A stretch of DNA of 64,000 nucleotides from Desulfuromonadaceae bacterium (GTDB taxonomy: Bacteria > Desulfobacterota > Desulfuromonadia > Desulfuromonadales > JAHYIW01). Position numbers and translations under genes: made by a program. The stretch is from assembly GCA_019429445.1 (NCBI GenBank), contig JAHYIW010000004.1:62001-126000 (forward strand), written 5' to 3'. Shown in pieces: positions 28,561 to 58,260 of this stretch (position 1 is the stretch's first letter; each line of letters begins with the position of its first letter). The notes beneath the pieces were generated by a model. It was not told the origin of the DNA. It searched no databases and was given only the letters and a program-made list of their open reading frames with translations.

Positions 28561-31500
28561 ATGATGAAAAAAAATTGCATTTTAAAGTTAACTGTCCTGC
28601 TGCTGACGCTACTTTTCCCGGTATTTGTCAACGCGGCGCAGACGCATTTAATGGGATGCACAAATTGCCACAAGGCGGGTGCAAATTTTGCGAGCTTCGA
28701 TGGAAATGCCTGTGTTCTCTGTCACACGAGCGGCAGTCAGGCCACCTTTAATGATAGTCTTGCTCATCCAGTCAAAGGATATTTTGAGGCCGGGGATGCC
28801 AGCGATGCAATCCAGACAGCCACGGTGGTGCATGGTGCAATACCAGGCAAGGAAATATCGCACATGTGGCAGCGTATGAATGGCTCTAATGTGCCGGATG
28901 TTGGCGCGCAGGAGCCGACGACTTATGCACGGCAGTTTAATGGCCGCTATGGAATCACACGTGGCAGGTTGCTTTGTTTCCGTTGTCACGATCCTCATGC
29001 CGACGCAACAACAAAGGCATCGCTGTTAAAAGTCCCGGTCGACGCTGATCAAATTTGCAGCGATTGTCACCTGCCCTGGTATCAGAATAATGCCAATGCA
29101 TTATTAACCCACCCGGTTGGAAGTGGCGTCAGCTATAATTCCGCCGCTGCGGATGCGACAAAATTCAACGCATCGATTACCAATGTCAATAATGGCGATA
29201 TCAGAAAGGTGGCCGGCTTTGTCTCCTGCACGTCGTGTCATGGTGTGCATTCGGTCGATTCAAATTCAGCCACGGTTGACGGCTATACCAACTATACTTC
29301 GCTCAGTGGTGACGGTCATCTGCTCCGTTCTGACGGACCGCGCGATTTAGCGGCTGTGACCGAGGCTAACTTTACCCAGGCTGAAGCGCAGAAAAAATCG
29401 AACCTGTGCCAGGCCTGTCACGTTTACAAGCTGCACGGTAAGGTTGACGATGGCGCTGCGGATCGTTTTCTTGGTTGCCTCGATTGCCACAGCGGCCACT
29501 CCTACAACAATAATGACCCGTACTATTTTGTTTTGCGCAAAAACTCCTATAATCCGATTAGCAACAGCAGCGTCAGTTTTACCGGCTACAATTTTGGCGG
29601 CTTCGATTATATCTACAACAACCCCGCTATTTTCGGTCTGCTCAATCGCACCGAAGTGTGGAAAGACAATTCAAACTTAACCGCGTTGGGCTACTGTGAA
29701 ACCTGTCATGGTGAAGCCGAAGCGATCCCCAAGGGGGCGTTGTTTCACTCATCGACCGACGATTGCGCGACCTGTCACCTGCATAACAGCACGGGCTGGG
29801 CGTACAGCTTTCAGAACGATGCCAGCGCGGCAACCTGTGGTGATTGTCACGGGTTCCCACCCTATATCAATGATCGCGGTGATCGCACCGGTTCCGGGGT
29901 TGATGGCGGCTACGCTTATATTTCAGCGGCATGGAACTATGCGCACACCAGTGTGACCTACTTTAAAGATGAATCAACAACCCCGCACAACGCCCACGCG
30001 GCAGGGGGAACGACTCAAGGCGCAACCTCGGACTATATCTTCGGCAACGGCGTCTATGCCTGTGAGCCGTGTCACGAAAACTTTATTCCGACCCATCAGC
30101 AAGAGTCGACCTTGCCGTATACGACCGGGTTCAGAAATATAAATTTTTACGCAAATGTTGACCAGGCGGGGGCAACGTACGATAGCGGAACAAATAAGTG
30201 TTCGGCCCTTTACTGCCACAGTAACGGGGCGCCAAGAACGGGTGACGGGCCGACGCGCAACTATGCGGTCGGTACCGTGACGACCCCGGCGTGGGCCAAT
30301 GGCAAGGGCACCATTATTGGCAAGACCAACCCGACCCATGAATGCGCATTTTGCCATGGCAATACCGCGGCGACAATGAACACCAAAGGGAACTCGGCCG
30401 CGCACGCCAAACACCTCGACAGATATGGTAACGATTGCTCCATTTGTCACAATCAAACGGCTGTCAACAGTACAACGCTGGCCAGCGGCGCAAATCGCAT
30501 TGACCTGCTCAGCCCGGCATCTGGTGGCAAGCACGTCAATACCCTGTACGATATCGTCTACAAGACCAGCGGGTCTGTCCTTTATAATGCGCTGGGAACA
30601 AATGCTCTTGGCGTAAATTACGATGCAACAACCGGAACCTGCTCGGTCTACTGCCACGACCCGGCGGATTTGGGCACGACCGCTGACTGGGATGCTGGCG
30701 TCGGCGGCGCCGCCTGCGGCAGCTGCCACGGCGTGACCTCGGCAACGTTGACGACGAATTCCCATGCAATACACATCGACCCGGCTGGCGCCAACATCAG
30801 TTGTGATGCATGCCACGGTGCCGGAGCCAGCACGGCTGTACACAGCGGCCATGTTGACGGCGTGGTCACGCAATTGACCGTCGCAGCATCTTGCGATCTA
30901 TGTCATGGCGTTGAGGGCGCTGATACCTCACCGATCTGGGGGAACAGCGGCAGCATCGATTGCCTTACCTGCCATACCGGTGCCAGTGTGACCAGCTACA
31001 CCGATGCTTCGGCGGCTACGGTCACTGCTCCGGCTAAAACGATGGCCGATATCAGCGGACACAACCGCCCGACCGCCAGTGATGCTTACCCGGTCACCGG
31101 CAGTCCTGCTGCAAACAAAACCTGCACCACCTGTCACCTGACTGCAATCAACGCTGATCACGTCGGTGGTGCCGCAACCAAGTTGTTGCAAGTGGCCTTC
31201 ACGTGTGAAGACTGCCACACCGCCGCCGGTTCACGTAGTGCCGAAGCGACGCTGCGCGTGCAGACCCATTCCAATATGGAAGTTGCCTACACCGGACAGA
31301 AACGGCTCGACTTTGCGGCTCTTTGCACTGCATGTCACGATCCGCATGGCGCGGGAAGCAACATCGCGATGATCGCCGAAGTCAAAGCTGATTTCCTCGG
31401 TAGCGTCGTCCTCTACAATGTAACCGGGGCCGACTCGTTTGATGAAGCAGATGCGGCCAACGGTGACGACATCTGCGCGACCTGCCACACCGCAACGGTG

Positions 31501-34500
31501 CATAACAACCGGACCGCCAGTGGTACCCACCATGAAGGTGAAAACTGCCTGACCTGCCACGGTCATAACGGTGTCAATGGCGGGTTCATGCCGACCGGCG
31601 GCACCGCCTGCAACGATTGCCACGGTAATCCGCCGACCGCCAGCGATGATCGTCCGGCGGGGAAGGCCGGCGTACACGCAGCACACGTTAATGTCGCTAC
31701 CCATGAAGAATCAGAAGATAAATTTGATTGTGACGTCTGCCACCCCGGCGCCGCGACATTTACCTTGGCGCACAGTGATGCGAGCGTCAGTCTGGCGGCT
31801 GGCATTACCAACGGAACCTGCGCCAGTGCTTGTCACTATTCCGGTAATGATGGCGTCGGCCCCTTGATAGACGATGGCTACTGGACCGACAGTAATGGTT
31901 TGAACTGCGACTCCTGCCACTACTGGAGCGCCACCCCGACCAGTGCTGGCAATGTTGCCAGCGGCAATCGCGAGGCGATCAGCGCCACCCACAACAAGCA
32001 CTTTGACAAAGGGAAACTCTGCGTCAACTGTCATACCAACAATGAGACCGATACCGTGGCGCCGCGTATCCATATCACCGACCACGAAGCTTGGGCCCTC
32101 AATGTGACCAATGATGGGACAATCCTGACTGATCGCGGCAACGCGACTCAGGACGAAGCGACGGTTGATTTCACCCTGGCGACCACCAAGTACGCTAGCT
32201 GGAATGACGAAACCAACTCCTGTGGCACCGCCACGGCGAACAGCGGCCTCGGCTGCCATGCGACCGGTTCCCCGACATGGGGCGGCTCGGCCCTGGCCTG
32301 TATCGACTGCCATACCGACAAGAGCAGCAGTGCCGTCAATCCAACATCTGGTCTGCACAGCGTCACTCCGCTGGTCTCCGGCATCCAGCACGACGAAAGC
32401 TTCTTCTACAACAGCGGCGTAAGTACCGGCAACTGCGAAACCTGCCATACCTCCGTGCCGTCGAGCGGGCATCAGGACGGTGTGATGGACGCCACCCGCG
32501 GCACCGCCGGCAATCTCAAGATCACCTTCGCTGCCACCATCAGCTATACGGACGACGTGGCACCGACTTGCGCCCCGAGTCTGACCGGCTGTCACTACGA
32601 GCAGCCGACCAAGACGGCCGATTGGAAGCGCAAGTGGCACGAAGGTGCCGCCAACGCCACAGCGTCCTGTGCTGGATGTCACGGTGACTGGGTCAACGGC
32701 TGGAACACTAACGTTCAGCACCATACCAATGCCAAGGCCCAGTCGACCCACGGGACCAAGGCCGGCAAGACCTACGAGTGCATGGATTGCCATGCCCTTG
32801 AAGCGGCCGCAGCCGTCTATCCGTTCACCATCGGCAGCAACGACTGGAAACCGGCTGATGCCGCGGCGACCACCTTGCACGGCAACGGCGTCATCAACGT
32901 CAACATCACCGGCACCGGTTTCGTCCGGGTCAGCACCCTCTCCGGTTGCCCGGACTGCCACACCAACTGGCAGACCGATGGTAAACATGCCTACGACGTC
33001 ACCGAGTGGACGCTGACCACGATCGCTGGTGATGCCCCGACCGTGACCTGCGCCACCTGCCACGGTGGTCTGACCGTTGGTACCAATGCCGCCAACTATT
33101 GGCCGGACAAGGTCGGCAACGACGCCACCGAGGACAATGGCGGGCGCCACCTGATCCACATGACTAGGTTGGCCCAGGCCAAGTACGGCGAGACCATCAC
33201 CGCACTGCTGACCGACAACGCCAACGGCACGGCCGACGCCAAGCAGAAATATCTGTGCGCCTACTGCCATACGGCACCAGGGAGTGATTTCGACCATGGC
33301 GATACCGCTGCTCTGCCGGCTGAGGTCTTCGTCTCCAACGCAGTACGCTCCTCCAAGACCATGTGGGATACCGCCGACAGTGACGCCACTTACACCAGCG
33401 GAAACTGCAGCAGCGTCGAGTGCCATAACGGCAAGGCGACCGCCACGACCGCGACTTTCGATTGGTACGGAACAGGGACACAGAATTGTGCCCTCTGCCA
33501 TAATGATATCACCGTGACCACCGCCGACACCACCGGTGCCACCCACGACGCCCACGTCGGCACACCGATCACTGCCTTCGGCAAGGTGATCGGCTGCGCC
33601 AGCTGCCACGGTGGCAACCCGACCTGGTCGCCATACGTTGTGCCGAGCAGCGGCCATATCAACGGCGCCTTCGCTGTCTCTGGCGGCAGTGTCACGGTCA
33701 GCTACACCGGCACCTACACCAACGCCGCCACCCGTACGGTCGGGACTTGCGGCACCAACCTTTGCCACAACAACGGCAAGAACGCCGCCACCCCGGTCTA
33801 CACCTGGCAGACGGCGATTGCTGGCTGCGCGGCCTGCCATGCCACCAGCTCAACCCTCGGTTCGTCGCACGATCCGCATATGAACGCCAGCTTCGCCACT
33901 ACCTTCGGGCGCGCCGTGGTCGGCTGCGAAGAGTGCCATGACGCGGTGAGTGCATCGAGCATGAGCGGCAAGACCGCCCATATGGATGGCAGTGTCACCC
34001 TCAAAGCTGGTATCACCTATACCGGCACCCCGGCGACGCTGACGGTGGGTGGCACCAATACTTATGGAACCTGCTCGGCCAGTCTCTGCCACCAGAACGG
34101 CAAGGGCGCTAACGTCGCCTCACCAGCCTGGAACCGCACCGTCAGCAGCACCGACAACTGCACTATCTGTCACAACGACGGTTCCGGTGCGCCGCAACCG
34201 GCCACTGGTCGCCACGCCAAGCACGTCACTAACGCCGCTTATGTCACCTCAAGCTGTGGTAGCTGCCATGCCAATGCCACCGCCACGACCATTGGCGGAA
34301 CTACGCATATCAATGCGACCGCTAACACCGGCGTGTCGATCACCGTTCATACGGCAGGAACGGCTGGCTGCGCCAACAACTGCCACCTGGTCAATGAAGC
34401 GACCAGCGGCGATTGGCTCGACAGCAACCTTCTGGCCTGTCTCGAATGCCATGTCACTGGCAAGGTCGGTGCCGCCCTGCTGCCGACGTCCGGCCTGCAC

Positions 34501-37500
34501 GCCGTCACCCCGCGCGTCAGTGGCAAGAAGCATGACGCCACCCTCCATGCCAGCGGTTGCGAGGCCTGCCACACCACCATTCGTACCCAGACAACGACCC
34601 ACATCAAGGGAAGTGTTGTCGCCGACGGTGCCAGTAACACCGACCGCGGTCTCTTTGCAGCCTACACCGATGCGGCGACCGGATCCTGCATGGGCACCGG
34701 GGTCAACCTGGCGGCTGGCTGCCACCGCGACAATGGTGACTGGGGCCGCAAGTGGGCCACCACCGTTGTAAACAGCGACGGTGCCGAGTGTGGCAACTGC
34801 CACGGTGGCATCGGTGTTGGCTACGCTGCTGCTACGTGGGTCGCGGGGATCGCTCCTGATCACATTATCGATCGTGATGGCGACACGAACCCGGAAGTCA
34901 TGACCAGCCACTCGGTCTGCAAGTCATGCCACGGCTTCAACGGGGCCGCCGACAAGGACGACAACTACGTTCTGACCAATCTCTGGAACCAGGGCGGTGC
35001 CGACACCTCGATGCACGGTAACAGCAAGATCACCATGAACGGTGGCACCAACTACAACGAGACCAACTGGGGGTGCGATAACGCCGGTTGCCATGGCGGT
35101 GCCTCGACCCTACACAAGCTGGCAGATTCTGCCTGGATCGTCGAACTCGGCTCCTTCGCCGCCGGCGGCTCCTGCTACGGCTGCCACGGTAACGGCTCCA
35201 GCCAATACTGGCCGGATGGCACGGTTTATCCTGACCGCGCAGGGGTTCATGTTGAGCACATTGCGGCGATTGTTGAGCATATGGCAGGGGGAGATACCCT
35301 GGCCAATCGCAATGCCACCTGTATCTACTGTCACCCAGGTGGTGTTCACTCCGGCGATCAGTCAGCCGCTCCGGCCGATGTCAGCAACACCGATACCAAC
35401 AACGATGGTGTCGCCGATCTTAACATTGCCGCCAAGATGAAGAAGATCGTCGGCGCGGCTGATGACAATAGTGGATTCTATCGTTCCACTCCGCAGACCT
35501 GCTCCACCGTCGCCTGTCATGCCAATGCGCCGTTCACGCCGCACTGGTACACCGATACCGTGGCTCCGGGCGATGTCACGCTGACTGCGGCAGCCGGGCC
35601 GGTACCGCGTTCGATCAAACTGACCTGGACTGCTGTTGGCGACGACGGTACACTGGACGGAACCGCTTACAAATATGACATCCGTATGGGCACAACCTCG
35701 GCCATTGCCACCAACTTTGGATTAACGACCAACCATGTCCAGGGCGTGCCGACTGTCAAGCGCATGGGCGCCGCGCAGGAAGCGATTATTCATGGGGTCG
35801 ATCCAAGCACCACTTACTATTTTGCCCTGCGCACCTACGACGTCACCGGCAACTTCGGTGGCACCGCCAACGGTGGCGGTTACATCAGCTACGCCGTTCC
35901 CGCCAGCGCCGACACCACGCCGCCGGTGCTGACCGGATCACCGACATGGTACGGTCTCGATTCGGCCAAGGCGCTCGACGCTGCCGGCACGGTTGCCCTC
36001 AGCTGGACCCGCGCCGAAGATCACTCGATGCCGATCACCTACGATATCTGGTGGAGTACCGCTACGATTACTTATGGTGCGCCGCAGGCCAGCACCGGTG
36101 ATACTCATTTCCGGGTCACCGGTTTGACCGATGGTCAGACCTACAACTTTGCAGTACGCGCCAGGGACGCCTACGGCAATACCGATACCAACACCATTGT
36201 CCTCCAGGCGATTCCGCAGGGTCTGTCCACGGTGCCGAAGGCCGATGTCAATTACTACGCCAATGGCACGGCCACAACCAATATTCCAATGCTGGCGACC
36301 GTGCATACCACCAACGGCACAACCGGTACGCTGCCCGCAGTCTTTATCGGGCCGACAACGTTCGCGGCAACAACCGATATTTTTGCCAGCGGTTTCAGCC
36401 TTAATATCGTGAACTCCAACGCCGTGACGACGCTGCGCGCCGAGCTCGGGTACATCACTGGCGCCAGCACTTTCAACTCCTTCTCCACGGCGCTCTGGGC
36501 CAGTGACCAGACTGTTGCCAAACGGGCGACGCGTCTGGTGACCTTCAAGTTCAACGGAGCCCAGCGACAAATAACGGCGGCGATGAATGCCAAACTCGGT
36601 GTCCGGGTCAGCGTCACTGCCGGGGCCGTCACCAGTATCGGTTGGGGCCCCACCAGCAAGGGGGGGATCCTCTCCTTCGCCACCCAACCGATCAATACGT
36701 CACCGACCGCACCGACGGTGAGTAGTACGGTTTCCGGTGCCAATGCCAGTATCTGGTGGGCGGCATCGACAGACACCGTGGATGGTGTGGCCGACACGGT
36801 TCACTACGATGTTTACGGTTCCGCCAACGGTGGTGCCGATGGCTTCCCCTACATTATTGCGACCGGGTTGACGACCAACGCCACTGTCGATACTCCGCTG
36901 GTCTGGGATACCCAGGCGGCCGGGATTGCTCTGGCCGGCGCGGTGAGTAATGTCCAGGTGCGCGTCGAGGCCGGTGATGTGATTAACGGCAAGGTGCTCT
37001 CGCATACCGCGGCGACCTCATCGAACCTCGCTGTCAACAACTCCGGCGATAATGTCGCTCCGGGGGCGATTGCCCACTTCAAGGCCGAAACCCGACCGAA
37101 ACAGGGTTCGGTCTACCTCAGCTGGACCGCTCCGGGCGATGATGGTGCCAACAATGGCCGCGCCGCCGCCTATGATATCCGCCTGGCAGATGCGATCATT
37201 GACACCGGGATCAAGTACAACGCGGCGACGCAGCTCGATTCCGAGCCTTACCCCGACTTTGGCGGTAACGGTCAAGGGTATGAGGTTCTTGATCTGGCCG
37301 CTGGCAGCTATTACTTCGCCATCAAGGCACTTGATGAAGGGGGTAACGCTTCACCGCTCGCCTACACTGCGGCGACAGTCGACGCCGGGCCGAAGTGTGG
37401 CATCTGCCACTCAACGCCGCCGGATGAAACAGCGACTATCGGCAACCACGCCAGACATGGTTACACGATTGCCGAGTGTGCCAATTGTCACGGCAGCGAG

Positions 37501-39930
37501 GCAGCAAGCTTTACCACTTCCCACCAGGATGGTGTCATCAAGCTGGGGTGGAAGACCGCGTCGCCGGTGGTCGCCACCACCTATAACTCCGGCTATATCT
37601 ATACCTATAACTCACTCGTCATCTATAAAGATGCCGACGGTTCCGGCGGGTTCAATGCCACCGGGGACAATATGGATGACGGCTCCTGTGGTAACTGGAG
37701 TACGCTCAATGTCAGCGGTTGTCACGGTCCGGCGGTTTCTGCCACCTGGTCTGTCGATGCCACGCTGTCGTGCAGTGCCTGTCACGGTGACAACAGTCGC
37801 GTCTTTGATCAATACAGTCACTCCTTCGATGATCCGAGCGACGATGTCAAGGCGGCACCGCCGGTCGATAACCATGGTTATGACGGTACCGGTGCGACCG
37901 AAGCCGAACGCAAATATGTTGGCGCGCACGTTGCGCACATCAACTCATCGTTCCGCATGAGCAAGGGGGATTCTTGCCGCCTCTGCCACGGCGCATCACG
38001 ACCGGGCAATTCAATCCATGCCGACGGGATTATTGATGTCGATCTCGATCTCGCTGCCGCCGGGGCAAGCGCTGTATGGACAGAAGGGACTCCGACGACC
38101 GCCGGAAGCTGTTCCAGCATGTCTCCTGAGTCCTGCCATCCGTCAACAGCGACACCCACATGGGACAGTGCCGCGGTCTTTTACTGCACGAATTGTCACG
38201 GCATGGGCGGGAATACACCGAGTCACGTCACCGATCCGAACAAGTTGATTGCTGACCCGAATAATGATCCGCAAACCGGTGATCCGATGCCGGGGAACTG
38301 TACCTGGTGTCATGTCGGCGGCCATCCCAAGGATAAAAAGGTTATCGCCATCACCAACGCCAGCCCGGCGGTCGTGACCACCGAGCACGGCCACAACCTG
38401 GCCGGGGGAGAGAAGGTGTCGATTCACACCACAACCGGCATGACCGAGATTAACAATCATACCTACAATACTGCCGTGATCAACGCCACGCAATTCAGTC
38501 TGGTGGGCTCTGATACGACCGGATACGGCACGTTCGATAACGGCTCATGGATCGAAGGAAACGGTACCGGCATCATTCTGATTCCCAACGACAGCCGTGT
38601 CGGGATTAACTACCTTTCCGGCGGGGTTCATCTCAAGGCCAATATTGGCGCACGTGGTGAGGTCAGCAGCGAAGCGGAGCTGTGCTGGAGCTGTCACACC
38701 CCCAACAGTATCTCCGAGTGGGGGGCCGACGATGGCGCGACCAATACCGTCACCGATCCCGGCAACGGCAATGTGTATAATTTCGGGACCCTCAACCAAG
38801 CGAACTGGATCGGTGCCACCTGGACCAGCGGGACGACCGGCACCTACGGTTTCAGCTACAAGACCGGCACCATCCGGTCCACGCATTCCACCGATGCAAC
38901 CGGTACCTCGGCCCTGACCGGATCGGCATATGCATACACCAACGGCGGCGTCGATGCGGTTGGCAAGATCCATTGCAGTAATTGTCACGACGTCCACAAC
39001 AGCAACACATCTCCATTGGCCGGCGACAACCTCGATCCGACCGGTCCGCCGTACCTGCGTGGCACCTGGAAGAGCAATCCTTACAAGGAGGACGGTGCGC
39101 CACAGGCGGGGCAAACCTACACTGCGCAGATTACAGCTGGCAGCCCCGGCTACGGTTATGGTGCTGTGCCACGGGCCAACCCGAGTACCACTCAGGAGAT
39201 GGGTGGTTACTGGATTGACCAGAACAGTGGCAACCCGACATCTGGCTGGACCTATGAATCTTCCGCCGCCCTCTGTCAACTGTGTCACAGCACGTCGGTT
39301 AACGATCTTGACCAGACAACCGGCGAGAATCTTTGGATCAGCGCCACCAACGGTCACGCCAACTCGGTTCTTGGCGGTTCCGGCGAAGGCGCGGCGAACA
39401 TCTTCCTTCAGGGTGTGGCCGGTGGCCGCAACGGGACTATCGGTGCCCTGGGTGGCTCCGCCGGAATCAATCCGAATGTTGGCGGGTGGATGGGCTTCCA
39501 AAATACCAGCGACAGCACAAAGGCGACTTATGGATATGGACCTCGCTCTACTGATGGTGGATATCTGGCACCACTTCAAACCCCGACCAAGGTTACGACG
39601 CCTAATCTGACTTTTGCCTGGGGGAATAGCGTCGATGCCACGACAGTGGAGAGCGGTTATCATCAGTTCTCCTGCTCCAAGTGTCACAACCCACATGCCT
39701 CGCGTCTGCCGAAATTGATGATCACCAACTGTCTCGACGTAACTCATAACACCTGGGAGGATGATTACTCAGGGAATGCAGCCTGGTCGTCTTTCGGTAC
39801 AACGACTTCCTCATGGGGCACCACGAAACTCTCGCATCTCTCGACGGCGCAGAACTGTCACCGGATGATTGATCTTAACGGAGACAATACCCCGGATGAA
39901 AAAGGCTGGAACAAGGTGACACCGTGGTAA
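28561..39930 (+). CDS. Giant multiheme c-type cytochrome 2 (about 55 CxxCH)
   Basis: This 3789-residue exported paralogue of cytochrome 1 has a signal peptide to about residue 26 and a first heme at CTNCH. Its N-terminal array (to ~2330) has about 45 CxxCH, six CX4CH, three CX3CH, one CX6CH (32569-32595) and two CX10CH (32221-32259, 34687-34725). A heme-free segment ~2330-2943 carries fibronectin-III-like domains. The C-terminal array has 10 CxxCH, CX10CH (37687-37725), CX7CH (38110-38139), the CSKCHNPHASRLPKLMITNC block and the end VTPW. Residues ~3258-3337 are an extra domain absent from the paralogues. GGAG fits the second ATG (28564, seven bases) better than the first. A peptide gene follows 40 bp after the stop. 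Large heme arrays like this are known or suspected to move electrons across or beyond the outer membrane. Confidence 0.9.
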   Translation: MMKKNCILKLTVLLLTLLFPVFVNAAQTHLMGCTNCHKAGANFASFDGNACVLCHTSGSQATFNDSLAHPVKGYFEAGDASDAIQTATVVHGAIPGKEISHMWQRMNGSNVPDVGAQEPTTYARQFNGRYGITRGRLLCFRCHDPHADATTKASLLKVPVDADQICSDCHLPWYQNNANALLTHPVGSGVSYNSAAADATKFNASITNVNNGDIRKVAGFVSCTSCHGVHSVDSNSATVDGYTNYTSLSGDGHLLRSDGPRDLAAVTEANFTQAEAQKKSNLCQACHVYKLHGKVDDGAADRFLGCLDCHSGHSYNNNDPYYFVLRKNSYNPISNSSVSFTGYNFGGFDYIYNNPAIFGLLNRTEVWKDNSNLTALGYCETCHGEAEAIPKGALFHSSTDDCATCHLHNSTGWAYSFQNDASAATCGDCHGFPPYINDRGDRTGSGVDGGYAYISAAWNYAHTSVTYFKDESTTPHNAHAAGGTTQGATSDYIFGNGVYACEPCHENFIPTHQQESTLPYTTGFRNINFYANVDQAGATYDSGTNKCSALYCHSNGAPRTGDGPTRNYAVGTVTTPAWANGKGTIIGKTNPTHECAFCHGNTAATMNTKGNSAAHAKHLDRYGNDCSICHNQTAVNSTTLASGANRIDLLSPASGGKHVNTLYDIVYKTSGSVLYNALGTNALGVNYDATTGTCSVYCHDPADLGTTADWDAGVGGAACGSCHGVTSATLTTNSHAIHIDPAGANISCDACHGAGASTAVHSGHVDGVVTQLTVAASCDLCHGVEGADTSPIWGNSGSIDCLTCHTGASVTSYTDASAATVTAPAKTMADISGHNRPTASDAYPVTGSPAANKTCTTCHLTAINADHVGGAATKLLQVAFTCEDCHTAAGSRSAEATLRVQTHSNMEVAYTGQKRLDFAALCTACHDPHGAGSNIAMIAEVKADFLGSVVLYNVTGADSFDEADAANGDDICATCHTATVHNNRTASGTHHEGENCLTCHGHNGVNGGFMPTGGTACNDCHGNPPTASDDRPAGKAGVHAAHVNVATHEESEDKFDCDVCHPGAATFTLAHSDASVSLAAGITNGTCASACHYSGNDGVGPLIDDGYWTDSNGLNCDSCHYWSATPTSAGNVASGNREAISATHNKHFDKGKLCVNCHTNNETDTVAPRIHITDHEAWALNVTNDGTILTDRGNATQDEATVDFTLATTKYASWNDETNSCGTATANSGLGCHATGSPTWGGSALACIDCHTDKSSSAVNPTSGLHSVTPLVSGIQHDESFFYNSGVSTGNCETCHTSVPSSGHQDGVMDATRGTAGNLKITFAATISYTDDVAPTCAPSLTGCHYEQPTKTADWKRKWHEGAANATASCAGCHGDWVNGWNTNVQHHTNAKAQSTHGTKAGKTYECMDCHALEAAAAVYPFTIGSNDWKPADAAATTLHGNGVINVNITGTGFVRVSTLSGCPDCHTNWQTDGKHAYDVTEWTLTTIAGDAPTVTCATCHGGLTVGTNAANYWPDKVGNDATEDNGGRHLIHMTRLAQAKYGETITALLTDNANGTADAKQKYLCAYCHTAPGSDFDHGDTAALPAEVFVSNAVRSSKTMWDTADSDATYTSGNCSSVECHNGKATATTATFDWYGTGTQNCALCHNDITVTTADTTGATHDAHVGTPITAFGKVIGCASCHGGNPTWSPYVVPSSGHINGAFAVSGGSVTVSYTGTYTNAATRTVGTCGTNLCHNNGKNAATPVYTWQTAIAGCAACHATSSTLGSSHDPHMNASFATTFGRAVVGCEECHDAVSASSMSGKTAHMDGSVTLKAGITYTGTPATLTVGGTNTYGTCSASLCHQNGKGANVASPAWNRTVSSTDNCTICHNDGSGAPQPATGRHAKHVTNAAYVTSSCGSCHANATATTIGGTTHINATANTGVSITVHTAGTAGCANNCHLVNEATSGDWLDSNLLACLECHVTGKVGAALLPTSGLHAVTPRVSGKKHDATLHASGCEACHTTIRTQTTTHIKGSVVADGASNTDRGLFAAYTDAATGSCMGTGVNLAAGCHRDNGDWGRKWATTVVNSDGAECGNCHGGIGVGYAAATWVAGIAPDHIIDRDGDTNPEVMTSHSVCKSCHGFNGAADKDDNYVLTNLWNQGGADTSMHGNSKITMNGGTNYNETNWGCDNAGCHGGASTLHKLADSAWIVELGSFAAGGSCYGCHGNGSSQYWPDGTVYPDRAGVHVEHIAAIVEHMAGGDTLANRNATCIYCHPGGVHSGDQSAAPADVSNTDTNNDGVADLNIAAKMKKIVGAADDNSGFYRSTPQTCSTVACHANAPFTPHWYTDTVAPGDVTLTAAAGPVPRSIKLTWTAVGDDGTLDGTAYKYDIRMGTTSAIATNFGLTTNHVQGVPTVKRMGAAQEAIIHGVDPSTTYYFALRTYDVTGNFGGTANGGGYISYAVPASADTTPPVLTGSPTWYGLDSAKALDAAGTVALSWTRAEDHSMPITYDIWWSTATITYGAPQASTGDTHFRVTGLTDGQTYNFAVRARDAYGNTDTNTIVLQAIPQGLSTVPKADVNYYANGTATTNIPMLATVHTTNGTTGTLPAVFIGPTTFAATTDIFASGFSLNIVNSNAVTTLRAELGYITGASTFNSFSTALWASDQTVAKRATRLVTFKFNGAQRQITAAMNAKLGVRVSVTAGAVTSIGWGPTSKGGILSFATQPINTSPTAPTVSSTVSGANASIWWAASTDTVDGVADTVHYDVYGSANGGADGFPYIIATGLTTNATVDTPLVWDTQAAGIALAGAVSNVQVRVEAGDVINGKVLSHTAATSSNLAVNNSGDNVAPGAIAHFKAETRPKQGSVYLSWTAPGDDGANNGRAAAYDIRLADAIIDTGIKYNAATQLDSEPYPDFGGNGQGYEVLDLAAGSYYFAIKALDEGGNASPLAYTAATVDAGPKCGICHSTPPDETATIGNHARHGYTIAECANCHGSEAASFTTSHQDGVIKLGWKTASPVVATTYNSGYIYTYNSLVIYKDADGSGGFNATGDNMDDGSCGNWSTLNVSGCHGPAVSATWSVDATLSCSACHGDNSRVFDQYSHSFDDPSDDVKAAPPVDNHGYDGTGATEAERKYVGAHVAHINSSFRMSKGDSCRLCHGASRPGNSIHADGIIDVDLDLAAAGASAVWTEGTPTTAGSCSSMSPESCHPSTATPTWDSAAVFYCTNCHGMGGNTPSHVTDPNKLIADPNNDPQTGDPMPGNCTWCHVGGHPKDKKVIAITNASPAVVTTEHGHNLAGGEKVSIHTTTGMTEINNHTYNTAVINATQFSLVGSDTTGYGTFDNGSWIEGNGTGIILIPNDSRVGINYLSGGVHLKANIGARGEVSSEAELCWSCHTPNSISEWGADDGATNTVTDPGNGNVYNFGTLNQANWIGATWTSGTTGTYGFSYKTGTIRSTHSTDATGTSALTGSAYAYTNGGVDAVGKIHCSNCHDVHNSNTSPLAGDNLDPTGPPYLRGTWKSNPYKEDGAPQAGQTYTAQITAGSPGYGYGAVPRANPSTTQEMGGYWIDQNSGNPTSGWTYESSAALCQLCHSTSVNDLDQTTGENLWISATNGHANSVLGGSGEGAANIFLQGVAGGRNGTIGALGGSAGINPNVGGWMGFQNTSDSTKATYGYGPRSTDGGYLAPLQTPTKVTTPNLTFAWGNSVDATTVESGYHQFSCSKCHNPHASRLPKLMITNCLDVTHNTWEDDYSGNAAWSSFGTTTSSWGTTKLSHLSTAQNCHRMIDLNGDNTPDEKGWNKVTPW

Positions 39931-39970: not shown

Positions 39971-40027
39971 ATGAAAAAGTATCTGAAGCCAAAAGTAGTA
40001 GGGAGCAGCAACGTTCATCCCTGCTGA
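39971..40027 (+). CDS. 18-residue peptide gene after giant cytochrome 2
   Basis: The product is MKKYLKPKVVGSSNVHPC. AAGGAGG lies seven bases before the ATG, a stronger site than those of most neighbours. A near copy follows giant cytochrome 3 (15 of 18 residues identical). At DNA level the two differ in ten codons: seven changes are silent and three are conservative (K/R, V/I, S/G), which argues for selection on the peptide. The lysine-rich start and single C-terminal Cys recall short precursors of modified peptides, such as the 'geopeptides' described for Geobacter, but no maturase gene is in the window. A heme, metal or redox accessory role is equally open. A strong hairpin follows. Confidence 0.75.
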   Translation: MKKYLKPKVVGSSNVHPC

Positions 40028-40043
40028 ACTGAAAACAGAGCAT

Positions 40044-40082
40044 AACGACAAAGGGCCGGGAGATTTCCGGCCCTTTGTCGTT
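40044..40082 (+). terminator. Hairpin terminator after the peptide gene
   Basis: A perfect 16-bp stem AACGACAAAGGGCCGG with CCGGCCCTTTGTCGTT has a 7-base loop. The core CCGGCCC is followed by TTTGTCGTT, which can act as the weak U-tract. Confidence 0.75.
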
Positions 40083-40106
40083 ATAGATGCGACCTTTTCA
40101 AGAGGT

Positions 40107-44239: not shown

Positions 44240-46762
44240 TCAATTGTAGGCTGGTGACGTTTTCCCCGGTTCGAGTGATTGCGCTTTGCGCATAAAGTGG
44301 GAAGCCGTATCGCTGCGCCCCGATTTGGAATAACCGATCCCCAGTTCGCGCAGGTTCTCGGCGACTTGCCAGCGGGTTGCGCCAAGATTGATAATCGGCA
44401 GAATAATGTTTTTTTGCGCGGCGAGAAGATTTTGCATATTGGTGGCCTGGAACTCGCCCAGTGTATGCTCACCCAGATTATATTTGGCGGAATATTCCAG
44501 AATCGGCATATCGTCGGTATTAAGTCCGGCCCCTTGTGCAAAATCGAGGAGCGCACTGCGGTCATACAGGTAATGTTTGGCGATCAGGTCGCCAGCTGAT
44601 TCGATCTCAATCTCTCTTAACACCTGGCTGATTTGGGGATGGTTTATGCGCTCCTGCAGTGCGCTGTAGTCAAATTGCAGTGGTGTGTTCCCTCCCAGCA
44701 GGATCAGGTCGGATCCGGCCTTGAAGGCCAAAACGTGTTCAAAGGTGCGCAAAAAGGTATTGCAGGCAATTTTAAGGTTGCCCGGTTCAATATCATAAAG
44801 GCCGATCCATTGGCAGAGAATTCCTCCGCTATTCAAGCGACTGGCGGCAAGATCGTAAAATTCAGCGGTAAAGAGATTTGAGTTCCCCGCTTGCCAGGGG
44901 TTTGATGGCTCGGAAACGATCACGTCGTAATTATGTGGCTCGGTCAGCAGCAGGTTGCGTCCATCGTTGAGGACAAGATTGATCTTGGCGTCGCACAGGG
45001 CAAAGTCGTTGGCGTCGTCAAAGTAAGACGATGCCTCAACCACGCCGGGAGAAATTTCGACACAGGTGATATTTTTCGTGGGATGGTTGCTCAATCCTTT
45101 TAGCGTCATCCCGGTTCCCAGGCCGATCACCAGCACGTCCTGCGGACTCTGATGGAGCAGCATCGGCAGATGACCGACCAGAATCTGGGTTGCGGCATCC
45201 CGCCCGGTGCTGCCGTCTGTTTTGCCGTTGACGGTAAAGAAACGATTCGTGCCATCCAGGTTCTCATGAACCGCAACGGTCGTATCGACCCCCTCAATCA
45301 CTTCGATAATTTTTTCGGCGGCAAGGATCTTGTTGAGTCCTCCCATGCTGGCGTATTTCGGCGCGTAAATATACACACCGCTGTTCATCAAGGACTGATC
45401 CCACTGCGTCGGCAGAAAGATTGCCACCAGTGTTACGATGAGCAGGATCGGGACGAAAGCTTTTGAGCGCTGCGTGGTTAGCCGATAAGAGATAAAAATG
45501 GCCAGGAGAATGTTGGCGATGGCCAGCAAGCGAAAGCTGTTCAACAGTCCGAACGCCGGGATCAGGGTGAATCCTGCGACCAGACTGCCGAGCACCGCGC
45601 CGGTCGTGTTGCAAAATACCACCAGCCCCACCCCTTCACCGGTGCGGGCTTTCCCCGGATCGACAATGGCAACCGCCGCCGGGAGGAGCGCGCCGGAAAA
45701 GATGGTCGGCAGACACATCACGCTAAAAACAATCAGGAACGAGAGCGTTGACAGGTGCCACCAGCGCTCGCCGGATGCCTCGTGGGCAAACTGGAACAGA
45801 TAGGCCAGTTGATCATAAAACGGCACCGTGACGAGGATTGAAACCCCCATCAGACCAGCAAGGACAATAAAGATATGGCGTTCGTTGAGCTGCGGGTGAA
45901 CGTTGCGGGCGTAAAGTGCGCCGCCGATAGCAATGCCGATCAAATAGGCGCTGAGCATCAGCGCAAAGGCATAGGTGGTGTTGCCGAGAAAGAGCAGAAA
46001 TACGCGAGTCCAGAGAATCTCGTACGCCAGCGAAAAAAAGCCGATGGCACTGATACTCAACAGCAGAACCTTGTTGTCAGCCGCCAGTTGCGGCAAGGAA
46101 TGGCGTTTGCTCATCGATACGTCGACCGTGGCTTCCGCCTTGCCAAGACTGCGCGAGAGGACCAGTGCGGTGATCGCGATCAGCGTATTTGCGGCAATAG
46201 TGAGCCACCCGGTGGTTGACAGGCCAAACGTTGGAATCAGATAGAAACCGGCACAAAAGGCACCCGCCATGGCGCCCAGGGTATTCATCGCATAGAGGCG
46301 ACCGATCTGTCCGCCACTTTTCTGGCGAGCAAAGAAACGACACATGATCGGAAAGGTGCCCCCCATGTAGACCGCTGCCGGCAATAACAGAATGGCGGAA
46401 AAGAAAATATGCAGAGCGTTGGCGAACCCCGTTCCGCCAAACGACTGCACCAGAAAAACATAAAAAGTTTGAATGGCCATCAGGGCCGGAGCAAAGAACA
46501 GCGCACTGAGAGCAATGCCCAGTTCGAGCACCGCATAGATGGTCAACAGATTCTTTTTCTGGTCGGCATAACGGCCGATAAGGTAGCTGCCCAGGGCGAT
46601 TCCACCCATAAACGTTGCGGTGACGATGCTGACCGCGTAGATCGTTGTGCCGAAGGTCAACGAAAGATGTTTGCTCCACAGAACTTCATAAACCAGGGCA
46701 CAAAATCCCGAAAGAGTGAAGATCAGATAAACGAGAGCTTTGGCAAAAGGGCGATCAGTCAT
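44240..46762 (-). CDS. MFS-like / spermidine-synthase-like fusion protein 1
   Basis: This is an 840-residue protein. Residues ~1-440 contain about 14 hydrophobic helices (LIFTLSGFCALVYEVLWSKH at the start; RLYAMNTLGAMAGAFCAGF). Residues ~485-720 resemble the SAM-dependent methyltransferase fold of spermidine synthase (VIGLGTGMTLKGL; CVEISPGVVEASSYF; LVLNDGRNLLL). The catalytic Asp region, DSTDP-like in true SpeE, reads SEPSNPWQAG, so aminopropyl transfer is doubtful. A helical tail follows, residues ~740-840. Such fusions are common and uncharacterised. A close paralogue lies at 58901-61402; the pair brackets giant cytochrome 3. Confidence 0.85.
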   Translation of the reverse strand: MTDRPFAKALVYLIFTLSGFCALVYEVLWSKHLSLTFGTTIYAVSIVTATFMGGIALGSYLIGRYADQKKNLLTIYAVLELGIALSALFFAPALMAIQTFYVFLVQSFGGTGFANALHIFFSAILLLPAAVYMGGTFPIMCRFFARQKSGGQIGRLYAMNTLGAMAGAFCAGFYLIPTFGLSTTGWLTIAANTLIAITALVLSRSLGKAEATVDVSMSKRHSLPQLAADNKVLLLSISAIGFFSLAYEILWTRVFLLFLGNTTYAFALMLSAYLIGIAIGGALYARNVHPQLNERHIFIVLAGLMGVSILVTVPFYDQLAYLFQFAHEASGERWWHLSTLSFLIVFSVMCLPTIFSGALLPAAVAIVDPGKARTGEGVGLVVFCNTTGAVLGSLVAGFTLIPAFGLLNSFRLLAIANILLAIFISYRLTTQRSKAFVPILLIVTLVAIFLPTQWDQSLMNSGVYIYAPKYASMGGLNKILAAEKIIEVIEGVDTTVAVHENLDGTNRFFTVNGKTDGSTGRDAATQILVGHLPMLLHQSPQDVLVIGLGTGMTLKGLSNHPTKNITCVEISPGVVEASSYFDDANDFALCDAKINLVLNDGRNLLLTEPHNYDVIVSEPSNPWQAGNSNLFTAEFYDLAASRLNSGGILCQWIGLYDIEPGNLKIACNTFLRTFEHVLAFKAGSDLILLGGNTPLQFDYSALQERINHPQISQVLREIEIESAGDLIAKHYLYDRSALLDFAQGAGLNTDDMPILEYSAKYNLGEHTLGEFQATNMQNLLAAQKNIILPIINLGATRWQVAENLRELGIGYSKSGRSDTASHFMRKAQSLEPGKTSPAYN

Positions 46763-47205: not shown

Positions 47206-50200
47206 ATGTTATCTACGGTGCGTAAAGTGGTTGTATGTCTGGTGATGCTGTTGGCAATTCCTGTTTTTGCCGTGGCGGTGCAGACCCATTTTCTCTCATG
47301 TGGTGAATGTCACAGACCTGGACTTGATTTTTCAAGTCTGGACGGCGGTGTTTGTGTTGCCTGTCATGCCAATGCCAGCTACGTCTTTAATGATGCTCAA
47401 TCGCACACCATGAAGGGGCATTTTTCCGCTGGTGATGCCAGTAACGCATACAACACCGCCGTCGCCGAGTTTGCTGCCGTACCGGGTCAGCAGTCGTCAC
47501 ATTTGTGGATGAAGTTCAGCGGTGAAACGGTCGCTGCGGCAGGTGCTACCACGCCGACAACCTATGCTCGCCAATTCAACGGTCGCTACGGGATAACCCG
47601 CGGCAAGCTGGTCTGTTTCCGTTGCCACGATCCGCATGCCGATGCAACGGTCAAGACCGCTCTCCTTAAAGTCCCGGTCGATGCCGATCAGCTGTGTCTG
47701 GATTGCCATAAAGGCTGGAATGTCAATAACGCCTCTGCCTACGAAACCCACCCGATTATTGCCGATTACAGCGCCTCGGTTGCTGCCGCGCCGAACGATT
47801 ATAAAGCCACCCCCCTGGTCAATGTTGCCAATGGCGATGTCCGTCTGGTCAACGGCGGCGTTTCCTGTACATCGTGTCATGGCACGCACTTTACCGATTC
47901 CAGTTCCACCACGGCTGACGGTTCGGCAAACTATGGTTCCCTGGTCAACGGTGACGGTTACATCCTGCGTACCGACGGCCCGCTGCGCACCGGCGCAAAC
48001 CGCAATGAAACCGCCCAGCTGCGTTCCAATCTTTGCCAGACCTGTCACGCCATGGAGCTGCACGGGCAAACCACACAGATGCTCGGTTGCCTTGATTGTC
48101 ACGGTGGTCACGCCTACAACGGTGGCACCCCGAACGCCTATATCCTTCGTGCGCAGTCGCGGGAGCCACTGCCGACCCGCCCCGGCGGCATTAACGGTGC
48201 CGCTGCGCCGATCACTTTTGGCGTCTATCCGGTTGGCGGTTCCACCCGCACCAAGTGGGCCGATGATATTGAGGGGCAAGCTGGCGGTCTCTGTGAGCAG
48301 TGTCACGGCGACGTCAACGCACCGCCGCTGAAAGGAATGGCCACCGAGCATGAAGCTGGCAACTCCAACGAGTGTACCGCCTGTCACCGGCACAACGATC
48401 CGGCTAACCTCTATTCGTTCAATCGTGATGCTTCGGCCGCGACCTGCGGGCAGTGCCACGGGTTCCCCCCCTACCTCAACGTTCCCGGCGACCGGCAACT
48501 GGTTCCGGCCAACGACGGCGGTTATGCCGAGAACAACTCCGCTGATCAGGGCGCCCCTTACGACTATCTGAACAGCACCAGTCACTTCAAGGATGAAACC
48601 ACCACCGGGCACAAAGTGCACGCCGGGGCCGATCTGCCGACCAGTCCGGCCGGTTCCCTCGACTGGTATTTTGTTGGTACCGCCGGGGTCGATAACTGCA
48701 AGGTCTGTCACGGTCCCGATGCCGGTGCCAGCGCGGGTGGTCACCGTGAGGCTCCGGCGACCCGTCCCGACACGTTCCGGGATTTATTCTTCGACGCGAT
48801 CGCCAAAACCGGCAACATGACGCCGGCGTATGATGGCACCGGTACCTACACCTGTTCGAACGTCTACTGTCATACCAACGGCGCGCCTTACGGCGGCAGC
48901 CGTCCGACCCGTGACTACACCACGGTCAACATCACGCCGCCCTGGGCTGGCACCGGTGCCAACTATGCGGCCGGTGGGTTTGGCGCCATCTACGGTCAGG
49001 CGAATCGTTGCGCGCTGTGTCACGGTAACAACACCGCCACGATGACCAGCAAATCCAATTCCGCGGTGCACCTCGCCCACCTGGGGGGCACAACGACCCT
49101 CAATATGGGGCAGACATACAGCTGCGCGGTTTGCCACGTCAACACCGCGCTCGACGCCGACACCCTGGCGATCGGTGCGATGGACGGAAGTGCTGGCGGC
49201 ACCCATGTCAACGGTCTGATCGATGTCGCTTATCAGACCAGCGGTTCGGCATTGTATAATGCTCTGGCGGTCAATGCCGTGGGGGTCAATTATGATCCCG
49301 GCACCGGGACCTGCGCTTCCTACTGTCATGACCCGACCGACACCGGCAACAGCGTCGACTGGGACAACGGCACCGACATGCAGTGTGATACCTGTCATGG
49401 CGGGATTGCCAGTGATATCAGTGGTGATGGCGGCGTCGGCCCGATTACCACCGGCTCACATGCTCGCCACTTCAGTGATACCAACGGCCCGCTGCTGACC
49501 TGCGCTCAATGCCACGGGACCGGTGCTGACGCCGGCACCCACGCTGGTCACCTTGATGGCCTTGTCGATCTGGCACCGCCGGTAGACCCGGTCACTTTCA
49601 AAGATATCTGCGAAGAATGCCACGGCTACGATGCCGATCCCGGCGAGGTTCTGCCGGTCTGGGGCAACCCGGCTACCACCGACTGCGCCACCTGTCATAG
49701 CGGCACGCAATGCGGCGCTGACTTCAACACGCACACGGTCGTCACGGTCGATTATGCGCGGACCTCAGGGCACAATCGCCCGACCGCCAGTGGTGCCTAT
49801 GCCCAATCAGGCAATGTCGCCGCCAATCTGGACTGTCTCGATTGTCACCTGGCCGACAGTCCGCTGCATTGGGACGGGATCAACGGTGATTACCTGATGC
49901 GCACCGATGACACTTTCCCGGCGACCTACGCGGGGAACGAGGACAGCTTCTGCGCCAGCTGTCACGGCGCCACTCCAGGGTCGGTCAACGCTGCATCGGT
50001 AGCGACCCAGGCGATCAATACCCACCAGAGCAAGCTGTGTGTCGCCTGTCATAACGTCCATGGCGATCAGAACATTCAGATGATCTGGACGACTCGGGCC
50101 GACCAGCTCAGCCATGACCCGTCGCTGACCGGCAAGTATGCCGCCGATGTCTTCTTTGACAACCTGACCGATTTTGGTCTCAACTCCTACGACGAGGATG

Positions 50201-53200
50201 ACGGCGCCGCCGGTGGCGCGGGCGAGGCCAATGCCGACGATATCTGCGCAACCTGCCACACGGTGGCCGCCGGGACCAGCCACAACAACGCCGACAACAG
50301 CACCGGCGACCATTATCAGGGGACCGACTGCTTCACCTGCCACGGCGGCCACGGCGACACCGATGCCTTTAAAGTCGGCGTCGGCACCGCCTGTAACGAC
50401 TGTCACGGTTTCCCGCCGGTTACCGGCGCCCATGTGCGCCACAGCCAGTCCGCGAGCAACGACAAGGATGTCGAGGATATCTCCGATTGTGCTGTCTGTC
50501 ACACCGGGGCTGATGCCTATAGCTACGATCTTACTGCCGATATCGGCGCAACGCTGAATCACAGCAATACCGCCGGACGCAAAACGATTCTGAACACCAC
50601 GGTCGGTTATAACGCCACCAATCTCGACTGTGCCACTGCCTGCCATGCATCGACCGTCGGCAATGGCGGACGCTGGACCGACACCACCGGTCTGGCGTGC
50701 GATGCCTGTCACTACTACGCGGCTGCGCCGACCAGCGCTGGCAATGCAGGTGATCTGTCGCTCAGCCATGACGAGCATTTTGATGCCGGCAAGGGCTGCA
50801 CCGACTGTCATACCCTCGATGATGGCGCGCTTCCGACCGCCGGGCCACTGACACATATTGATGACATCAGCGGTGCTGATCAGGGCGCGATGTACACCGG
50901 GATGGCCACCGCGCTGAATGATGAAGCGGCTGTTGTTCGTACCAATATGGTGTTTGAAGATGTCAGCAACACCTGCTCCGGTTCCGGTGTCGCCGCCGCG
51001 TGTCATGCCACTGGCACCCCGGACTGGGATATCGCCATTCCGGCGACCGGCGCCGGTTGTCTGGAATGTCATACCGATACCGACACCGCTGCCTACAACC
51101 CGACCTCCGGTCTGCACGATAACAATCCGTTGCCCACCGTCACCGGCAATGCCCACGACGGCTCTTTCGACGACGGCAGTGCTGGCACCGCCGACTGCGT
51201 CACCTGCCACACCACCGCTCCGTCGGCCAGCCATGCCGACGGTACTCTCGATAGCGGGGCTGCGGTGACGGTTGCCGCTGTTGCCGGTTACACTCAGGGA
51301 ACCGGTACTTGTGCCACCACCTGCCACAGCGCCGGGACCGCCTGGGCCTACAAGTGGGCGACCAGCGCCTACAACAGCGACGGCAGCGAGTGCGCCAACT
51401 GTCACGGTGACTACGCCAACGGCTGGGTGACCGGAGTTGCGCCGCATACCGAGAACCCGACTCGCGGCAGCAAGCACAACAACACCGGCACGCTGACCTA
51501 TCCGTGTACCGACTGCCACGCCATCGGTTCGGCGTCCGGCTACAACTGGACCAGCAAGTGGGATCCGACCGGCATCACCAGCAACCACGGTGATGACAAG
51601 ATCACCATGAACCAGACGGCGATCAACACCTTCGCCATCGACACGGTGCCGAATCCCGATCGGGCCGGTTGCACCACGACCAGTTGCCACGGCAACGACG
51701 CGGCGCACAACTTCACCGTGACCACCACCGCGTTCACAACGGCCACAGTGGGTGGCAACGAGCCTTCGGTTCTCTGCTCCAGTTGTCACGGCGGCTACGC
51801 GGGGACCAGCGCCAACGGCTACTGGCCGGACGGCGTGACGCCCGATGAAGATACCGCCGGTGCGCACCAGGAGCACCTGGTGGCCCTTGCTGCACAGGTT
51901 TATAGCGAGACGCTCGCCCAACTGCTGACCGACAATGGTAACGGCACCGCCGATGCCAAGCAGAAGGAGCTCTGCTCCTACTGTCACGACACACCGGGTT
52001 CCGACGGCGATCACGGCATTGCAGCCAATCTGCCTGCCGAAGTCAACGCCATGTACACCATGTGGACCAAGGCGGCGGACAACGGCGTCTATGACAATGT
52101 CGCCGACACCTGTGCCACCGTCGATTGTCACTTCAACAAGACCACACCGGATAACATCTTCGGCTGGTACGACGGCAACACCAGCGCCTGTGTCATGTGC
52201 CATGTCGATGTCACCAGCGATACCGCGCACACCGCACATACCGGTGCCGCAACAACGTTCGGTATTGCTATCGGCTGTGCCGACTGTCACGCTGCGGCCA
52301 CCGACTGGGCCGGCAACGTCGCTCCGGCCAGTGGCCATCTCGATAACAGCTACGATATCGCCGGCAGCGTCGCTTTCACCTACAGCGGCGGTACCTGCGG
52401 TACCAATGCCTGCCATGAAGACGGCAAGGGTGGCGCTCCGGCCGATAACACCTACACCTGGGGTGCAACCCTCGCCGATTGTACGATCTGTCATGCGGCA
52501 ACACCGGCAACGGGCACGCACGTCGTTCACGTCAACAATGGCAGCTACGTTCCGAACAGCTGCGACGACTGCCATACTCCGGCCACCAACGCGGCGCATA
52601 TCGGCGGCGACGTGACCTACAACACGGCGACGATCACCGCCACCGCCGGAACAACACCGAATATTACCTGTACCAATAGTTGTCACACCGGTGTAACGAC
52701 CGAATTTGACGGCACGCCGGGGCTGGCCTGTACCGATTGCCACAGCGGTGGCTACATCGGCGGTGGCAGCAACATGCCACAGTACGCGATGCATACCGTC
52801 ACGGCGACCGTCTCCGGTGTGGTGCATGATCAGACTATTGCCGGAGCGGGAGGCGATTGTGCCTTCTGTCACGATTCCCTGCCCGCAGCGGGCGGTACGC
52901 ACGTTGACGGCACTTTCGTTGCCGATGGCCCGGCCAATACCGATCGTGGCATGTTTGCCGGCTTCACCGACGGCGCGACCCCGACCTGTACCACCGCCTG
53001 CCACAGCGCCGGCACCAGCTGGACTTACAAATGGTCGGCCACTGCCGCCAACAGCGACGGAACCGAGTGTGCCAACTGTCACGGCGACTACGCCAGCGGC
53101 TGGAACACCGGTGTCGGCCATGCGGCAACTCCGACGCGTGGTAACAGCTCGAACCACAATGATACCGGTAACCTCAGTTACGCATGTACCGCGTGTCACG

Positions 53201-58008: not shown

Positions 58009-58045
58009 TAAAAAAAACATTAACCCCTAAACCAAGGAGGATATG

Positions 58046-58102
58046 ATGAAGAAGTATCTCAAACCTCGTATCGTCGGCAGCGGCAACGTTCACCCCTGCT
58101 GA
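58046..58102 (+). CDS. 18-residue peptide gene after giant cytochrome 3
   Basis: The product is MKKYLKPRIVGSGNVHPC. AAGGAGG lies five bases upstream of this ATG; a second ATG at 58043 would add one Met. It starts 37 bp after the cytochrome stop and ends 22 bp before a strong hairpin, the same arrangement as its partner at 39971-40027. Conserved residues are KYLKP, VGS and the terminal NVHPC. Its position suggests co-transcription with the cytochrome, since no terminator lies between. Function unknown. Confidence 0.75.
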   Translation: MKKYLKPRIVGSGNVHPC

Positions 58103-58124
58103 TTGATAACGCACCATGCTAGCT

Positions 58125-58160
58125 ACAGAGAAAGGCCGGGTTTCCCCGGCCTTTCTCTGT
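58125..58160 (+). terminator. Hairpin terminator after the second peptide gene
   Basis: A perfect 16-bp stem ACAGAGAAAGGCCGGG with CCCGGCCTTTCTCTGT has a TTTC loop. The 3' arm is T-rich after the GC core, like its counterpart at 40044-40082. Confidence 0.75.
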
Positions 58161-58260
58161 ATGGAATGTAATGATTGGGCACCCAGTTCAGATTCAAAAT
58201 TGTGCCCGAGAGTGACAAATCTGTGGTTCTGAATCCGCCCTTTCAGCGTTCATCAGCATT

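Follow-up and report, generated by a model that had tools for sequence, protein, structure and literature searches.

Short peptide genes behind giant multiheme cytochrome genes encode probable substrates of the GeoRSP radical-SAM/SPASM system

Two peptide genes and their giant cytochrome neighbours

The window, by which we mean the whole stretch of 64,000 nucleotides analysed here, carries three giant multiheme cytochrome genes, two of which stand on the forward strand directly 5' of a peptide gene. The first of these (28561-39930) encodes 3789 amino acids with 55 CXXCH motifs plus CX3CH/CX4CH, and the second (47206-58008, or from 47179 if a TTG start is used) encodes 3600 amino acids with 53 CXXCH plus CX3CH/CX4CH. 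The remaining gene, at 4953-14267, encodes 3104 amino acids with 48 CXXCH plus CX3CH/CX4CH; we looked for a peptide gene behind it and found none. Two related proteins of 830-840 amino acids (MTDRPFAKALVYLIFTLSGFCALVYEVLW...) are encoded on the reverse strand at 44240-46762 and 58901-61402, flanking the cytochrome gene at 47206-58008. A spermine-synthase-domain protein of similar size adjoins a peptide copy elsewhere (locus L160).

The peptide genes, copy 1 (MKKYLKPKVVGSSNVHPC, 39971-40027) and copy 2 (MKKYLKPRIVGSGNVHPC, 58046-58102), lie on the forward strand, with the coordinates and sequences given in the preliminary description. Both end in TGA and both are preceded by the AAGGAGG Shine-Dalgarno site reported there, and the spacing from the cytochrome stop, given as about 40 bp, measures 40 nt for copy 1 and 37 nt for copy 2. 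Because copy 2 has tandem in-frame ATGs at 58043 and 58046, its product could have either 18 residues or 19. Of the 18 codons, ten differ between the copies, as had been counted, seven of them silently and three with amino-acid changes (K/R, V/I, S/G), and a pS of 0.77 with a pN of 0.10 bears out the view that the peptide is conserved rather than the DNA. The hairpin described behind each gene is present on the forward strand, at 40040-40090 (z -8.4 versus shuffles) and 58124-58161 (z -7.0 versus shuffles), but at about 17-19 bp it is slightly longer than the 16 bp first assigned to it. Neither of these two hairpins has a classical T tract. A third copy in the same genome and the presence of the family in 94 of the 277 genomes of the class put the window's peptides far beyond chance.

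A conserved peptide family under purifying selection that co-occurs with GeoRSP

Searching the window's own genome, we found the third peptide copy, MKKYLKPRIVGSSNVHPC, on another contig, bringing the genome total to three. A radical-SAM/SPASM gene, itself preceded by a PqqD-like gene, stands about 40 nt ahead of it, and a gene for a SPASM protein comes just after it. The radical-SAM maturase that the preliminary description suggested looking for elsewhere in the genome is found here, beside a copy of the peptide itself. Like copies 1 and 2, this copy ends TGC-TGA with a hairpin behind. The radical-SAM protein scores 434.9 bits against TIGR04303 (GeoRSP radical SAM/SPASM protein), above the cut-off of 400. 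The PqqD protein reaches 94.7 bits against a cut-off of 100 for TIGR04302, below it yet with this as its best family by far, and the SPASM protein 110.7 bits against 300 for TIGR04304, again below the cut-off yet with this as its best family. Since these two partners miss their cut-offs, we call the cassette GeoRSP-type with divergent partners. All three GeoRSP families reach their cut-offs in Nitrospirota (in one cassette, PqqD 141.9 and SPASM 300.2). The geopeptide maturase family TIGR04280 was rejected as a candidate, the best match in the genome being 46.2 bits against a cut-off of 400.

The cassette keeps a common set of neighbours in both phyla: a NosD-like beta-helix protein, a CarboxypepD_reg-like protein, two substrate-binding proteins, a ResB-like or NapH-like membrane protein, a TPR protein, a YedE protein (TIGR04112), an ArsP-type permease and a cupin, along with PqqD, radical SAM and SPASM. 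A cysteine desulfurase of a selenium-linked family also occurs in the cassette, and its YedE is a transporter of the selenium type. These neighbours suggest envelope-side work and the handling of sulfur, selenium or metal. Among those cassette neighbours that could be assigned to a conserved family, none was recognisable as a dedicated peptidase or as an exporter of peptides. Wherever a peptide copy adjoins the radical-SAM gene it lies downstream on the same strand (40 of 40), at a distance of 30-209 nt measured from where the family match ends.

The family comprises 180 distinct instances and 109 sequences of 16-20 residues, the consensus reading MKK(xx)YxKPxVVGSxNVHPC within Desulfuromonadia and MKKxxYxKPKVVGTSSVHPC outside it. 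VHPC-stop was the exact end of all copies inspected, apart from one LHPC. The expression used to collect the family demanded HPC-stop, and the invariance of that end is therefore partly by construction; the BLAST and profile matches inspected beyond the expression also end in VHPC-stop and vary elsewhere (VVRSS, VTGQSS, VVGVSS). A Shine-Dalgarno-like site precedes 174 of the 180 instances, as befits a translated ORF. At the conserved positions Ser is written with all six of its codons, and Gly, Pro and Val each with all four of theirs. The mean pN/pS across the family is 0.25, a sign of purifying selection on the peptide. As in a RiPP precursor, a short conserved ORF under purifying selection adjoins an RRE/PqqD gene and a maturase gene. 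We found no model for the peptide in Pfam or NCBIfam. Several peptide copies cluster at L165 and L169, and in two of these the N-terminus is irregular (MYGKPKVVGTSSLHPC; RSRYVKPQVVGTSSVHPC, which has no ATG). Behind a 30-heme gene at L082 (3400-3570, reverse strand) two peptide genes stand in tandem, separated by about 100 nt.

As the earlier reading had predicted, the pattern recurs in related genomes. Of the 277 genomes of the class, 94 carry the peptide and 84 the GeoRSP radical-SAM gene: 82 have both, 12 the peptide only, two the radical-SAM gene only and 181 neither (Fisher 2e-54, a value that ignores shared ancestry). In at least four of the 12 peptide-only genomes (G017, G046, G069, G070) split radical-SAM genes lie at or near contig ends, and in G149, a genome scored negative, there is a diverged copy, VKKTKYVAPKVLGSAVVHPC, whose start codon seems to be GTG. 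The phylum sample of 395 genomes includes 16 with GeoRSP outside the class, and there the peptide occurs in 15 of the 16 GeoRSP-positive genomes as against none of 20 that are GeoRSP-negative. Likewise, a pattern scan of named genomes has peptide-bearing Nitrospirota among the matches listed, including a Mn-Nitrospirae MAG; of those tested, 14/14 carry GeoRSP, 13 of them over the cut-off. In three GeoRSP-positive genomes (G182, G226, G447) a relaxed search for the peptide gave chance-level matches only, so that none of the three has a detectable peptide; G182 is a single contig and 100% complete. One match lies on a 3.9 kb MAG contig assigned to Phycisphaerae (L218). The contig is probably misbinned, since the gene upstream of the peptide shares its ending with the Desulfuromonadales HD-domain gene and the MAG lacks GeoRSP.

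Multiheme surroundings and a shared C-terminal cytochrome domain

We examined 59 copies away from the radical-SAM gene that had enough upstream sequence, the loci being picked for upstream length and not for content. A gene with at least five CXXCH motifs stands directly ahead of 29 of them, compared with one of 323 control genes around GeoRSP cassettes, and a same-strand gene with at least eight CXXCH lies within 9 kb of 46 of the 59. The other genes ahead of copies encode FG-GAP repeat proteins, an HD-domain protein, or Big_1 with a biotinyl/lipoyl-like domain, mostly within multiheme clusters. Because many copies follow non-cytochrome genes there, the association is with multiheme clusters and not with one protein. 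The idea of a dedicated partner of these cytochromes is borne out only in part: roughly half of the non-cassette copies are directly behind a multiheme gene, others come after FG-GAP, Big_1 and HD proteins, and one copy often sits in the cassette.

Several of these neighbours recur. FG-GAP/UnbV_ASPIC repeat proteins stand beside copies at L068, L071, L072, L080, L094, L099, L107, L174 and L176. At L159, L160 and L163, outside the class, copies lie behind Big_1/invasin-type proteins with a C-terminal biotinyl/lipoyl-like domain; at the first two a multiheme gene stands one or two genes ahead of the copy, and the protein is apparently exported with a carrier-type domain. A copy follows an HD-domain protein gene at L102, L105, L220, L247, L250 and L218, where a direct link to a cytochrome is not evident; at L102 a BaxI_1 family gene comes after the peptide copy.

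Many peptide-linked cytochromes end in the pattern HxFxCSKCHxPH..LPxL..TNC-(X22-102)-CH..WNxxTPW. In the window the domain occupies 39655-39930 of the first cytochrome gene (CSKCH..TNC-X41-CH..WNKVTPW-stop) and 57760-58008 of the second (CSKCH..TNC-X37-CH..WNKVTPW-stop), both on the forward strand, and it recurs at 14001-14267 (forward strand) in the giant cytochrome that has no peptide behind it. The split C-Xn-CH pair (n=37-41) and the WNxxTPW tail are thus common to all three. The first half of the domain matches Paired_CXXCH_1 weakly and the remainder has no Pfam or PDB match; on our reading of its sequence, the domain would contain the CXXCH motif twice, with a long variable insert interrupting the second site. 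It occurs in 83 of the 277 genomes, about 77 of them GeoRSP-positive, and the WNxxTPW-stop tail alone, after removal of false TGG ends, in 52, of which 49 are GeoRSP-positive. In the window's own genome three of five such cytochrome domains have no peptide behind.

Assignment of the peptide to GeoRSP and its possible use

Near-exclusivity to GeoRSP carriers and frequent placement behind giant cytochrome genes make the peptide very probably the substrate of GeoRSP. Judging from sequence and gene context, we conclude with considerable confidence that the 18-residue ORFs are RiPP-type precursors of this radical-SAM/SPASM system, the cassette for which stands on another contig beside the third copy. 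Among the roles first offered for the peptide, that of a modified precursor is strongly supported, both by a copy inside a radical-SAM/SPASM and PqqD cassette and by co-occurrence across two phyla.

The system resembles GeoRSP of NCBIfam (TIGR04302/TIGR04303/TIGR04304) in its maturase over the cut-off, its adjacent PqqD-like and SPASM-only genes and its lineage. NCBIfam names the enzymes only, with no peptide model found; what the present analysis adds is the peptide family itself, the dispersal of its copies behind cytochromes and its occurrence in Nitrospirota. Geopeptide/geopep_mat_rSAM (TIGR04280) is alike in name and lineage and is a different system, the genome's best match falling below the cut-off. 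We know of no published GeoRSP substrate. The literature searched makes no mention of GeoRSP or of a link between peptide modification and giant multiheme proteins, and the original GeoRSP description lies outside that literature; priority of the substrate assignment is not proven. The assignment provides the GeoRSP enzymes with a definite family of substrates, each about 18 residues long and accessible by peptide synthesis, and connects post-translational peptide modification with giant multiheme cytochromes, in which it flags a shared C-terminal domain with an odd Cys/Cys-His pair. Genes of this class are easily overlooked because they are shorter than usual gene-calling limits.

We infer that the conserved KKYxKP leader serves as the docking site for the PqqD-like protein and that the radical-SAM/SPASM enzyme, together with its SPASM-only partner, acts on the invariant V-H-P-C at the C-terminus. 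As no residue ever follows the Cys, we favour chemistry dependent on a free C-terminus over a simple internal thioether. One possible reaction is C-terminal oxidative decarboxylation to an enethiol, which we put forward tentatively, by analogy. MftC acts on the C-terminal Tyr of MftA by comparable chemistry, an oxidative decarboxylation. Mycofactocin and PQQ likewise combine a short precursor, a PqqD-type chaperone and a radical-SAM/SPASM enzyme of the same broad group. They differ in their Tyr-containing core, where here there is a C-terminal VHPC; moreover, no peptidase is seen here, and the precursor copies are scattered behind client-like genes.

That the peptide product serves multiheme cytochromes seems to us the better bet, though well short of assured. 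Speculatively, it would be made together with the cytochromes and delivered to them by products of the cassette's envelope genes (NosD-like, ResB- or NapH-like, substrate-binding proteins, permease), and its destination might be the unusual C-Xn-CH site of their C-terminal domain. The fullest form of this proposal, a radical-SAM-made peptide cofactor in giant cytochromes with a precursor for each operon, a Cys modified by GeoRSP and installation from the envelope side at C-Xn-CH (n=22-102), is unlikely as a whole; if it is true, two phyla would share a prosthetic group that derives from a peptide and serves extracellular electron transfer.

The same substrate could have a different use. GeoRSP might make a small molecule that diffuses or is stored and acts as a redox cofactor or metallophore, like PQQ, mycofactocin or methanobactin, with the cytochrome-adjoining copies just tying supply to the control of extracellular electron transfer. 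We hold this a plausible but less likely second choice: the radical-SAM protein resembles the mycofactocin, AhbD/NirJ and PqqE enzymes, the copies are multiple, dispersed and in some cases behind non-cytochrome genes, and the cassette includes permease and binding-protein genes, but no peptidase or tailoring gene like MftE or PqqF was recognised in it, and the peptide is conserved over its full length of 18-20 residues, not in the core alone.

Returning to a cytochrome-directed role, a variant of our best explanation makes the peptide necessary for maturing the C-Xn-CH site (n=22-102) at the C-terminus of the cytochromes, whether it acts as a carrier, a ligand or a chaperone; the ResB-like gene would then belong to a machine dedicated to attaching heme or another cofactor. 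The domain tracks GeoRSP and often precedes the peptide, and the Paired_CXXCH_1-like pair in it seems to have its second CXXCH split. The heme lyases NrfEFG, CcsA1/MccA and SirEFG likewise form dedicated gene sets tied to cytochromes with an atypical C-Xn-CH-like site, and such lyases are required for the CX15CH of MccA and for the SirA site (PMC6976685, PMC7096707). The atypical long spacing in these papers is CX15CH, as compared with n=22-102 here. In contrast to those sets, no CcmF/CcsA-type lyase was recognised in the cassette; the ResB match covers only a short C-terminal stretch, and ResB is absent from some cassettes. Furthermore, about 11 GeoRSP-positive genomes have no detected domain, several peptide-linked proteins lack it, the two Cys could form a disulfide, and the AlphaFold model of the domain (mean pLDDT 41) was discarded as uninformative. 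We regard this variant as possible but doubtful.

The peptide might instead be an unmodified micro-protein, a translation-coupled factor for cytochrome assembly that shares only its ecology with GeoRSP. The short gap, the strong Shine-Dalgarno site and the position behind cytochrome genes would suit it, but it is improbable given a copy directly behind the GeoRSP radical-SAM gene in 40 of 150 listed places, the co-occurrence in two phyla and the many copies not behind cytochromes.

Selenocysteine would offer another reading of the TGC-TGA and hairpin common to all three copies of this genome, with TGA read through, the hairpin serving as a SECIS element and the peptide ending ...HPC-U.... The selenium-type YedE transporter and the selenium-linked cysteine desulfurase of the cassette fit such a role, as does selD in 16 of 17 GeoRSP-positive genomes tested, but the stop codons of the 180 copies (TGA 104, TAA 65, TAG 11) reject it for the family and leave it a very slight probability. 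The genome without selD is a GeoRSP-positive Nitrospiraceae chromosome, so selenium is probably not strictly needed. Finally, chance ORFs or DNA-level repeats, which the very short length of the ORFs might suggest, have a negligible probability and are refuted by silent codon variation at invariant residues, a pN/pS of 0.25 and occurrence in two phyla.
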